Part shown: positions 28,255 through 32,091 of the stretch, piece after piece
Position numbering within the stretch: the stretch's first letter is position 1
Layout of the letters: each line of letters begins with the position of its first letter
DNA from: Thermoproteota archaeon
GTDB taxonomy: Archaea; Thermoproteota; Thermoprotei_A; Sulfolobales; Ignisphaeraceae
Assembly (NCBI GenBank): GCA_013154235.1
Contig: JAADCV010000082.1
Span: forward strand, 1-48,925
Length of the DNA stretch: 48,925 nucleotides
Direction: 5' to 3'
Notes under the pieces: generated by a model
What the model saw: the letters and a program-made list of their open reading frames with translations, nothing else
Databases searched by the model: none
Told to the model about the DNA's origin: nothing
Translations under genes and position numbers: made by a program

Positions 28255-28992
28255 ATGAGGCTCGTGGCCGAGGGAAAGAGTAAGCTCGTTTATGAAAAAG
28301 ACGGTGAGCTCGTGCTCGAGTTCAAGGACGAGGTAACGGCTATGGATGGAGCCGTGAGAGCCACAGCCCCCGGAAAAGGCGTTCTCAACGCTAGGATCTC
28401 AGCCTACCTCTTCTCCCAGCTCGAGAAGCGGGGCATCGAGACCCACTTCATAGAGTACGACGGCGGTAGGAGGCTGAGGGTTAGGAAGCTCAGGATGATA
28501 CCCCTAGAGGTCATAGTTAGGAACTACGCCTACGGATCCCTACTGAGGAGGATGCCGCTCATAGAGAGGCTAGCACCCCTATCCCCACCCATAGTCGAGT
28601 TCCACCTCAAGAACGACGAGCTTCACGACCCCCTCGTGCTGAGGGAGGACATCCTAGCAGCGAAGCTCCTAACACCCCAGCAGCTAGACGAGGTTGTCTC
28701 CATAGCCATACGCGTGGACGACGTGCTGACCGAGGTCTTCAGGAGCAGGGGGCTGAAGCTCATAGACATGAAGCTGGAGATGGGGTTCGACCCCAGCGGA
28801 AGGATACTGGTAGCTGACGAGATATCGGGGGACACGATCAGGGTGATGGACGAGAGGGGGAGGCACCTAGACAAGGAGGTGTTTAGGAGGAGCGGCGACC
28901 CGAAGCTCCTCATCGAGGCCTACACCGAGCTAGCTAGAAGGCTAGGGCTCGAGGTGAGCGACGTCGCTCGAGGTAGAGGTGGTGATAACTAG
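28255..28992 (+). CDS. purC: PurC, SAICAR synthetase
   Basis: A 245-residue enzyme joining aspartate to CAIR with ATP. The N-terminus MRLVAEGKSKLVYEKDGELVLEFKDEVTAMDG is the standard PurC nucleotide-binding lobe. EVIVRNYAYGSLLRR (around residue 85-100) is the (E)V(I)VRN.A.GS signature, and KLIDMKLEMGFDPSGRILVADEISGDTIR near residue 180-205 is the (D).K.E.G......(L)(A)DE..(P/G)D..R block. Length matches archaeal and bacterial enzymes. It is first in the plus-strand purine transcript, with a good ribosome-binding site. PurS overlaps its end by about 14 bases. Confidence 0.96.
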   Translation: MRLVAEGKSKLVYEKDGELVLEFKDEVTAMDGAVRATAPGKGVLNARISAYLFSQLEKRGIETHFIEYDGGRRLRVRKLRMIPLEVIVRNYAYGSLLRRMPLIERLAPLSPPIVEFHLKNDELHDPLVLREDILAAKLLTPQQLDEVVSIAIRVDDVLTEVFRSRGLKLIDMKLEMGFDPSGRILVADEISGDTIRVMDERGRHLDKEVFRRSGDPKLLIEAYTELARRLGLEVSDVARGRGGDN

Positions 28993-29215
28993 CAAGAAGG
29001 GGGTTAGGGACCCGGAGGGCGAGGCTATCCACAGGCAGCTCGTGCTGAAGAAGGGGTACGACAGGGTTAAGGGGGTTAGGGCTGGCAAGTACCTCCTGTT
29101 CCTAGTCGATGAGGAGGATCCCCAGCGAGCCCTAAGCTACGTGAGGGAGCTCTGCGAGAAGCTCCGGATCTACAACCCGGTGGTGCACGACATCGAGGTG
29201 AGGATCCATAGCTAG
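28979..29215 (+). CDS. purS: PurS, FGAM synthase small subunit
   Basis: A 78-residue PurS. The sequence contains KKGVRDPEGEAIHRQLVLKKGYDRVKGVRAGKYLLFLV, matching the K.G..D(P)(E)G..I...L...G...V..V..GK signature of this bridging subunit. PurS links PurQ and PurL in the FGAM synthase complex and helps pass ammonia between them. The start is a GTG at 28979 (a second GTG follows at 28982) within the end of purC. purQ begins over its last codons: the AUA used by purQ lies at 29208, inside the purS frame, so the three subunits purS-purQ-purL are physically coupled. Confidence 0.93.
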   Translation: MVITSKKGVRDPEGEAIHRQLVLKKGYDRVKGVRAGKYLLFLVDEEDPQRALSYVRELCEKLRIYNPVVHDIEVRIHS

Positions 29216-29885
29216 GGTAGCCATAGTCAAGTTCCCGGGGACGAACTGCGACGAGGATGTTCTCTACGCAGCTAGGAGCGTAGGGCTAGACGCTAGGATC
29301 GTGTGGCACCGAGACTTCGACCCTAGGGGCTGGGACGCGGTGATAATCCCCGGGGGGTTCAGCTACGGGGACTGGCTAAGGGCTGGAGCCATAGCTGCTA
29401 GAACCGAGGCTGTCGAGAGGATCGCTGACTGCATCGATAGGGGGATACCCGTTCTAGGCATATGCAACGGGTTCCAGATACTCGTTGAGGCAGGGCTCCT
29501 ACCCGGGGCCCTCCTACCGAACGAGAGCGGTAGGTTCGTCTGCAGATGGGTTAAGCTCGTAGCTAGAGACCCTAGGGGCCCATGGCTAAAGCTCGTTGAG
29601 GACGGGCAGGTTCTGACCATGCCTGTAGCGCACGCTGAGGGTAGGTACGTAGCTGCCGACCCCAGAGGGATCGAGGGGGCTCCTAGGATACACTACCTAG
29701 ATGGCTGGAACCCCAACGGGAGCGAGATGAACATCGCTGGCGTTGGCTCTAGAAACGGCGAGGTTCTTGGGCTGATGCCCCACCCAGAGAGGGCTGTGGA
29801 CAGGGTTCTGTGCCCAAGGGGGTTCGAGCCTAGCGGGAGGATCATCTTCGAGAGCCTAGCGTCCTCACTTCGCGAGGGGTGGTGA
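29208..29885 (+). CDS. purQ: PurQ, FGAM synthase glutaminase subunit, apparent AUA start
   Basis: A glutamine amidotransferase supplying ammonia to PurL. The ORF track starts at GTG 29301, which loses the first strand. The frame is open from 29202 and reads ARVAIVKFPGTNCDEDVLYA, the invariant PurQ N-terminus. The catalytic cysteine lies in PVLGICNGFQ, and the His/Glu pair in LMPHPERA. The only start that fits is ATA at 29208-29210, six bases after a strong GAGGTGA ribosome-binding site. That gives 225 residues, the usual length. Either AUA initiates here or one base is wrong; no ATG, GTG or TTG is available before 29301. It overlaps purS by eight bases and ends five bases before purL. Confidence 0.9.
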   Translation: MARVAIVKFPGTNCDEDVLYAARSVGLDARIVWHRDFDPRGWDAVIIPGGFSYGDWLRAGAIAARTEAVERIADCIDRGIPVLGICNGFQILVEAGLLPGALLPNESGRFVCRWVKLVARDPRGPWLKLVEDGQVLTMPVAHAEGRYVAADPRGIEGAPRIHYLDGWNPNGSEMNIAGVGSRNGEVLGLMPHPERAVDRVLCPRGFEPSGRIIFESLASSLREGW

Positions 29886-29889
29886 GGAG

Positions 29890-32091
29890 GTGCCGCTGAG
29901 CAGGGAGGACATCGAGGAGATCAGGAGGATTCTGGGTAGGGAGCCGACTAGGGAGGAGCTAGCGATGTTCGAGGCGCAGTGGAGCGAGCACTGCTCGTAT
30001 AGGAGTAGCAGAAGGCTGCTGAAGCTCCTACCCGAGGAGGGGTCTAGGACTAGGGTTCTCGTCGGTAGGGGTAGGGATGCTCCAGCCATCGAGCTGTTTC
30101 CCGGGGTAGCCATAGTCTTCAAGATCGAGAGCCACAACCACCCATCAGCTGTAGACCCCTACAACGGGGCTGCTACGGGCATAGGTGGGATAGTTAGGGA
30201 TGTTCTCACGCTAGGAGCTAAACCCATTGCCCTCCTAGACATGCTCTACCTAGGCGACCCGAGGAACCCCCACGCAAACTGGATAGCGAGAGGCGTCGTG
30301 AAGGGGATCAGCGACTACGGTAATAGGATAGGTGTTCCCACAGTAGCTGGAGACACGTGGTTCGACCCAGCCTTCAACAAGCAGCCGCTGGTCAACGTCG
30401 CGTGCGTAGGCATAGTGGATACGAAGACCCTCGCCTCGGTTCTCCGAGGGCCTAGGGAAGGGGATCTCGTGCTCATAGCTGGAAACCCAACGGGTAGGGA
30501 CGGGCTTCTAGGAAGCAGCTTCGCCTCGAAGCCCCTCGAGGATAGCGATAGCGACATCGCTGCTGTGCAGGTTGGGGACCCGCTAATGGAGAAGCTCCTC
30601 ATAGACGCAGTCACGGAGATCGCTAGGAGGGGGCTAGCGAAGCTCATCAAGGACCTTGGGGGCGGCGGGCTAACGACAGCGATATCGGAGGTGGCTGCTG
30701 ACCACAACCTAGGTGTTGAGCTCCACCTAGACGCTCTGCACACGAGGCAGGAGCTAACTCCCCTAGAGATCCTCGTTTCGGAGAGCCAGGAGAGGATGCT
30801 TCTTGTAGTCGACGAGAGCTCGCTTCCAGAGGTCGAGAAGATCCTTAGGAGGTACGAGGTTCCCTACAGCATCATCGGGCGCTTCGATGGGAGCGGGAGG
30901 ATAAGGGCGTTCTTTAAGGGTAGGCTGGTTGCTGATGTTCCAGCTAGGGAGCTAGCTAAGCCTAGAACCCTCTATAGGGAGGCTAGGCCACCTATAGAGG
31001 CTCTCAAGGGAATAGCTCCCCCGCCACCCGTTAGGGAGCCAGAGGATCTCGCTAAGGCTGCTCTAAAGGTTCTTAGCTCCCCCAACATCGCCTCGAAGAG
31101 GTGGATCTACGAGCAGTACGACCACGAGGTTGGGATCAGAACTGTTCTCAAGCCGGGGTACGGAGACGCTGCTGTCCTAAGGCTCCTAGACGGCTCTGGC
31201 AGAGGGCTAGCCGTTAAGGGCGATGCTAACCCGAGGTACACGTCCCTCAACCCCTTCAGCGGAGCTGCTAACTCTGTAGCTGAGTGCTTTAGGAACCTCG
31301 TGGCTACCGGGGCTCAGCCCCTAGCCATAGTGGACGAGATAAACGCTGGCAACCCCGAGAAGCCGCACCACTACTGGTTCTTCGACCAGATGGTTAAGGG
31401 GGTTGCGTGGATGGCTAGCGAGCTCGACCTCCCCGTGGTGGGGGGCAAGGTCAGCTTCTACAACGAGGATGCTAGCGGCAGGCAGGTGAAGCCAACAGCG
31501 ACCATAGTGGGCGTTGGGAGGATCGATAACGTTGAGAGAGCCCTACCAGCGTGCTTCTCCCAGCCCCGCAACCTCATAGCTATCGTTGGAGTGACCTACC
31601 CGGAGCTCGGCGGCTCGGAGTACCTCTACGCTGTCCACGGTATCGAGGCTGGCGAGGTTCCTAGGCCTAGGCCAGCCTCAGAGCTTAGGGCAGCATCCCT
31701 AGTGCTGGACCTAGCCTCTCGGGGAGCGATAGCCTCCGCCCACGATATTGGTAGCGGCGGGCTAGCAACAGCAATCCTCGAGGCCTGCGTTTGCAGCGGT
31801 CTAGGAGCCTCTGTAGACCTAGACATGGTTCCGAGCCGAGGCATCGAGAGGCTTGACCAGCTCCTCTTCTCCGAGACCCAGGCTAGGTACATCATCGAGG
31901 TTCCGAGAGAGGCTCTGCCAACCCTCGAGAGGCTAGCTAGGGAGCGCGGCGCTAGGGTGGCTGTGATTGGAGAGGTGAGGGACAGCGGCGAGGTGGAGCT
32001 GCGCTCGGGCGGAAAGAGGATCGCCTCGATAGGGCTCGAGGAGGCTAGGGAGGCCTACGAGTCGTCTCTCCCTAGAGCCCTCGAGTGGTGA
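29890..32091 (+). CDS. purL: PurL, FGAM synthase large subunit (small archaeal form)
   Basis: A 733-residue PurL of the SPQ-dependent type, converting FGAR to FGAM with ATP and ammonia from PurQ. Signatures: FEAQWSEHCSYRSSRRLLK near residue 28-46, IVFKIESHNHPSAVDPYNGAATGIGGIVRD at ~78-107, and GGGGLTTAISE around 257. The second half repeats the fold with GDANPRYTSLNPFSGAANSVAECFRNL and SAHDIGSGGLATAILE. The start is GTG 29890 behind GGTGAGGAG. It lies five bases after purQ and eight before purF. No part is missing compared with the family. Confidence 0.96.
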   Translation: MPLSREDIEEIRRILGREPTREELAMFEAQWSEHCSYRSSRRLLKLLPEEGSRTRVLVGRGRDAPAIELFPGVAIVFKIESHNHPSAVDPYNGAATGIGGIVRDVLTLGAKPIALLDMLYLGDPRNPHANWIARGVVKGISDYGNRIGVPTVAGDTWFDPAFNKQPLVNVACVGIVDTKTLASVLRGPREGDLVLIAGNPTGRDGLLGSSFASKPLEDSDSDIAAVQVGDPLMEKLLIDAVTEIARRGLAKLIKDLGGGGLTTAISEVAADHNLGVELHLDALHTRQELTPLEILVSESQERMLLVVDESSLPEVEKILRRYEVPYSIIGRFDGSGRIRAFFKGRLVADVPARELAKPRTLYREARPPIEALKGIAPPPPVREPEDLAKAALKVLSSPNIASKRWIYEQYDHEVGIRTVLKPGYGDAAVLRLLDGSGRGLAVKGDANPRYTSLNPFSGAANSVAECFRNLVATGAQPLAIVDEINAGNPEKPHHYWFFDQMVKGVAWMASELDLPVVGGKVSFYNEDASGRQVKPTATIVGVGRIDNVERALPACFSQPRNLIAIVGVTYPELGGSEYLYAVHGIEAGEVPRPRPASELRAASLVLDLASRGAIASAHDIGSGGLATAILEACVCSGLGASVDLDMVPSRGIERLDQLLFSETQARYIIEVPREALPTLERLARERGARVAVIGEVRDSGEVELRSGGKRIASIGLEEAREAYESSLPRALEW

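Follow-up and report, generated by a model that had tools for sequence, protein, structure and literature searches.

A probable AUA start codon for purQ in an archaeon of the Ignisphaeraceae, with near-cognate codons recurring at the purQ start across its order

Introduction

On which codon does translation of purQ begin when its reading frame offers no ATG, GTG, or TTG (here, the usual starts) ahead of the conserved N-terminus of the protein? The question is raised by a 48,925-nucleotide stretch of DNA from a heat-loving Thermoproteota archaeon (the whole stretch that was analyzed, referred to as the window). There, purQ, encoding the glutaminase subunit of phosphoribosylformylglycinamidine synthase, stands third in the row purC-purS-purQ-purL. 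A sequence-only reading of the window had proposed that the gene starts at an ATA codon six bases past a GAGGTGA Shine-Dalgarno sequence, a start that would be rare in archaea, and had called for a comparison of that codon among relatives.

Results

The purQ start and its surroundings

Read from the ATA at 29208 to 29210, purQ occupies 29208 to 29885 on the forward strand and ends on a TGA codon (29883 to 29885). Its product matches TIGR01737 (E value of 8.7e-78; 260.8 bits against a cutoff of 177.8) over profile positions 2 to 226 of 228, which bears out the earlier statement that ATA yields a PurQ of normal length. Pfam GATase_5 matches the same long protein from residue 3 (E value of 1.6e-41). 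In a comparison with the Thermotoga maritima PurQ structure (PDB entry 3d54), for which the queried frame began one codon ahead of ATA, residue 4 of the structure aligns with residue 4 of the query. This alignment reaches the first PurQ residues after ATA.

The purQ frame is closed by an in-frame TGA at 29199 to 29201 and open from 29202, with only the codons GGA and TCC between that stop and the ATA. Because the stop lies two codons ahead of ATA, no usual start exists upstream in the purQ frame, and the N-terminus of PurQ is indeed encoded ahead of any such codon. Downstream, the first usual codon is GTG 29301, 31 codons on; a start there loses residues 1 to 31 (the sequence-only reading had estimated ∼31), including the FPGTNCDED motif region, and the GATase_5 match then begins at profile position 49 rather than 3.

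The GAGGTGA itself lies on the forward strand at 29195 to 29201, inside the Glu-Val-Arg codons of purS (GAG GTG AGG), and is separated from ATA by the six nucleotides GGATCC (29202 to 29207), exactly the arrangement proposed. It matches the anti-Shine-Dalgarno sequence at seven exact bases, with a duplex energy of −11.8 kcal/mol. Duplex energies throughout were computed against AUCACCUCCU. The 16S rRNA tails used came from relatives in the order (GGATCACCTCCT in G024 and GGATCACCTCC in G022) and do not include that of the window genome, which was not found in the contigs examined or by a pattern search of the whole genome. RNA structure at the purQ start is nothing special (z-score of 0.8).

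The neighboring genes all lie on the forward strand. The first, purC, occupies 28255 to 28992 (Pfam SAICAR_synt; E value of 1.2e-62), and purL, which has an ordinary GTG start and served as a control gene, occupies 29890 to 32091 (Pfam AIRS, AIRS_C, and FGAR-AT_linker). Between them, purS (28961 to 29215; Pfam PurS, E value of 2.1e-23) ends on TAG at 29213 to 29215; its last 8 nt are therefore shared with the start of purQ, an overlap that is common in the family. The purS gene of the window also has a conserved N-terminus without a usual start (28958 to 28981; TGA GCG ACG TCG CTC GAG GTA GAG GTG). Of its two candidate starts, ACG 28961 gives a normal PurS-like N-terminus but has GAGGTGA just 3 nt ahead, while GTG 28979 gives an N-terminus shorter by ∼6 residues.

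The codon at the purQ start across the order

A purQ gene is present in 72 of the 214 genomes of the order, and a class-level search returned the same 72 genomes; 61 loci were read. At the aligned start, the codons are TTG (n = 19), GTG (n = 12), ATG (n = 10), CTG (n = 7), ACG (n = 5), ATC (n = 4), ATA (n = 3), and ATT (n = 1), giving usual starts in 41/61 loci and near-cognate codons in 20/61. These counts are less objective in 22 of the 61 loci, where we placed the start position by spacing and by alignment with sister loci. In the 39 loci whose position is fixed by the alignment, a start-like codon (usual or near-cognate) occupies that position in every case (39/39), compared with 2/39 at codon −2, 3/39 at codon −1, and 0/39 at codon +1; codon +2 is AGG or AAG (Arg or Lys) in 17/39. 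The start-like codon at this position is not due to chance.

In 11 of the 20 near-cognate loci, there is no usual start upstream and none within 15 codons downstream. These strict cases span four families, and all carry GGTGA six nucleotides before the codon. They comprise the window (L001) and L005 with ATA, L007 and L013 with CTG, L114 with ATT, L133 and L134 with ATC, and L019, L139, L140, and L144 with ACG. The other nine near-cognate loci, among which the window is not found, have a usual start 2 to 6 codons downstream (L117 also has one upstream) and may use that start. The PurQ tree, from which the start codon was left out, requires no fewer than 13 switches between canonical and near-cognate codons. 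Judged from these alignments, the putative AUA start is no one-off: near-cognate purQ starts recur over much of the order. Thus, the comparison with relatives supports AUA, with strong backing, as probably the sole plausible start for a full-length PurQ.

The recurrence also bears on whether the ATA might be a sequencing or assembly error that conceals an ATG or GTG. While the window assembly is fragmented and incomplete (107 contigs, 79% complete), L005 comes from another genome of the same family and has the identical ATA in the identical CCATAGCTAG context; L008 likewise has ATA, and the complete genome G006 has CTG at its purQ start. Since an independent relative carries the same ATA, resequencing is unlikely to return ATG, and we regard the chance of such an error as negligible.

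Beyond the order, near-cognate purQ starts as a general feature of the gene were considered and rejected: in a contig search covering bacteria and archaea, with nearly all loci outside the order, 0 of 76 purQ loci were without a usual start near the motif.

In two loci of the order (L017 and L031), purS extends well past the purQ start, giving a long overlap rather than one of 8 nt. Both have ATC at the aligned start and a usual start 2 to 3 codons on.

Where purS and purQ overlap, a PurS-PurQ fusion might make a purQ start codon unnecessary. Relative to purS, purQ is read in the +1 frame; if a ribosome made a +1 frameshift at the purS stop (AGC U AGG) by skipping the U of UAG, PurS would continue straight into RVAIVKFPG. 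We consider this highly improbable. A usual start is retained at the aligned spot in 41/61 relatives, and a fusion leaves unexplained why the codon elsewhere remains one mismatch from AUG. The shift site is also incompatible with a fusion in L017 and L031: their purS stop lies well inside purQ, so that shifting there would cost PurQ its N-terminus, although both loci also have the nearby usual start.

Translation of the stretch ahead of the first usual start

Selection on the stretch between the near-cognate codon and the first usual start was measured on pairs of near-cognate relatives; in pairs that include the window, synonymous sites are saturated. Between L139 and L140, both with ACG, there are 21 synonymous changes over 20.3 sites versus 3 nonsynonymous changes over 63.7 sites. 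The dN/dS ratio is 0.16 for the pair L005-L013 and 0.20 for L019-L144. Purifying selection thus acts on this stretch in close relatives, which argues that it is translated.

These values weigh against a shorter, functional PurQ that begins at GTG 29301. That codon has in its favor that it is the first usual one in the frame. A start there would drop the FPGTNCDED stretch, which is common to T. maritima PurQ and the relatives in the order, and the equivalent stretch is the one under purifying selection in near-cognate relatives. Furthermore, the fallback start falls at inconsistent places, with the first usual start after the near-cognate codon varying from codon 16 to codon 70. We find this alternative hardly tenable.

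Shine-Dalgarno strength and the start codon

Among the loci of the order, the mean duplex energy is −11.3 kcal/mol for near-cognate codons, −9.6 for GTG, −8.2 for TTG, and −5.7 for ATG. Near-cognate and ATG loci differ with a P value of 3e-5 (2e-4 for the strict 11 against ATG and 1e-3 for genus means), values that assume independence of related genomes to differing degrees. When nine independent pairs on supported branches of the tree were compared at an energy cut of −8.45, on average 6.3 agreed and 0.1 disagreed with the association (median P value of 0.031); at a cut of −9, the sign test gave 5.8 versus 0.5 (P value of 0.063). The association of Shine-Dalgarno strength with the start codon is therefore strong by count and borderline, as well as dependent on the cut, once relatedness is removed.

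Individual contrasts between related loci show the same pattern. L009 and L011 combine GAGCTGA with ATG, and the corresponding purS codons read Glu-Leu-Arg, whereas their sister L005 has GAGGTGA and ATA. Similarly, L115 and L119 have ACGTGA with ATG and L114 has GAGGTGA with ATT; L122 has a weak Shine-Dalgarno sequence with ATG, and L121 a strong one with CTG.

The nature of the codon also bears on the alternative of termination-reinitiation, in which a ribosome ending purS would step back within the 8-nt overlap and start on AUA; the codon would then matter less, as the ribosome is already present. The overlap is common in the family, and coupling of this kind is known in archaea and bacteria (PMC6728339 and PMC10666635). 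The purS-purQ pair resembles the archaeal cases in these papers in having an overlap. Unlike purQ, those cases have ordinary starts, with a noncanonical ATT named just as something that might underlie rare −5 overlaps (PMC6728339 and PMC10666635). However, coupling across −8 overlaps is weaker than across shorter ones (PMC10666635), and the purQ codon is still limited to one-mismatch codons and tracks Shine-Dalgarno strength. We therefore rate reinitiation as possible and somewhat unlikely. It could act alongside direct reading of AUA, and the likelihoods assigned to the two are not mutually exclusive.

Gene-specific or genome-wide

In the same loci of the order, a usual start is present in 56/57 purS genes and 57/57 purL genes, and the single purS exception is that of the window. 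The near-cognate habit is thus a trait of the gene and not of the genome. As a genome control, 1.19 Mb of the window's own genome was set against 0.4 Mb of the complete relative G006, yielding 152 nonoverlapping gene pairs, 145 of them scorable on the own-genome side. Of these 145 orthologues, purQ alone clearly lacks a usual start at its conserved N-terminus; a few further entries in the control amount to weak matches, likely shadow frames, or minor shortfalls. Loose starts throughout the genome are accordingly rejected for the part examined, where other hits are mostly wrong-strand shadow frames.

Loss of the initiation factor aIF1 was likewise rejected as a cause. Its gene (SUI1 domain) is present in the own genome and in relatives, which excludes a general loss of fidelity through absence of aIF1.

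On the G006 side of the control, purQ and one other gene are without a usual start. This second gene, from position 86745 onward (locus L257, offset of ∼6745), has 518 aligned residues and no usual start before codon 36; its frame opens TAG GTT TGT TTC GAA ATA. By its N-terminus, it resembles archaeosine tRNA-guanine transglycosylase. Either a near-cognate start or an erroneous frameshift could account for the missing usual start.

Discussion

The best overall explanation, to which we assign a probability of roughly 0.8, is that purQ initiates on AUA 29208 with the ordinary Met initiator tRNA, that the Shine-Dalgarno sequence embedded in purS enables this, and that the two signals are traded off. 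On this model, GAGGTGA and its six-nucleotide spacing would hold the small subunit with AUA in the P site. The normal initiator tRNA would pair with two of the three AUA bases and read the codon as Met; the mismatch at the third position would be tolerated, with initiation, and presumably output, lowered. The Shine-Dalgarno sequence would stay strong because it is written in conserved C-terminal codons of purS that are kept for PurS, and the purQ start codon would therefore be free to weaken. Where changes in purS break the Shine-Dalgarno sequence, purQ has ATG. The pattern suggests that start codon and Shine-Dalgarno sequence offset one another in determining the amount of protein, which would hold PurQ output near a set point. 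We infer that such a set point is selected; alternatively, the weak start may be the product of drift that a strong Shine-Dalgarno sequence allows.

Near-cognate starts that limit expression have precedence in Escherichia coli, where infC and pcnB begin with AUU and infC is autoregulated by IF3. The likeness to purQ lies in the near-cognate start; unlike for infC, we know of no link between PurQ and the fidelity of initiation. For Staphylococcus aureus, AUA starts of infC, ccpN, and citZ and an AUU start of cvfC1 are reported together with extended Shine-Dalgarno sequences; the three of these starts that were tested gave ∼10 to 30% of AUG output (PMC13009471). The purQ locus shares with these genes an AUN start combined with a strong Shine-Dalgarno sequence, and some of the S. 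aureus cases are also conserved in relatives (PMC13009471). It differs in being an archaeal gene for a purine enzyme rather than a bacterial gene for initiation factor 3, a regulator, citrate synthase, or a small protein, and its codon shifts among ATA, ATC, ATT, ACG, and CTG within one order.

Compensation between the two signals is also known: genome-wide, AUG genes tend to have weaker and GUG or UUG genes stronger Shine-Dalgarno sequences (Belinky 2017; PMC5622118). Unlike that analysis of AUG, GUG, and UUG, the purQ trade-off appears to include near-cognate codons at a single orthologous site. Our search of open-access papers found no case of an AUA or near-cognate start in archaea. A table in a manually curated survey of archaeal purine genes lists a few miscalled starts, apparently none of which is in purQ (PMC3261824). 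In addition, papers that cite the original work (PMC6237735 and PMC8211752) state that Sulfolobus solfataricus aIF1 discriminates against noncanonical starts in vitro; such discrimination would oppose initiation on AUA.

Dependence on the initiation machinery has been proposed earlier for the AUA starts of some bacterial genes. By analogy, the near-cognate purQ start might be an actively kept, order-wide translational dial that is read according to start codon fidelity (aIF1 and growth state). The level of PurQ, and with it the ratio of PurS to PurQ in FGAM synthase, would then vary with the condition of the initiation machinery. We regard this extension as doubtful.

For annotation, any gene finder limited to ATG, GTG, and TTG is bound to shorten or misplace purQ in no fewer than 11 of the 61 genomes of the order. 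For the biology of the order, purQ provides a natural series at one orthologous site, in which ATG, GTG, TTG, CTG, ACG, ATA, ATC, and ATT are set against Shine-Dalgarno sequences of graded strength. This series makes the stringency of start codon selection in archaea, and its compensation, directly testable.
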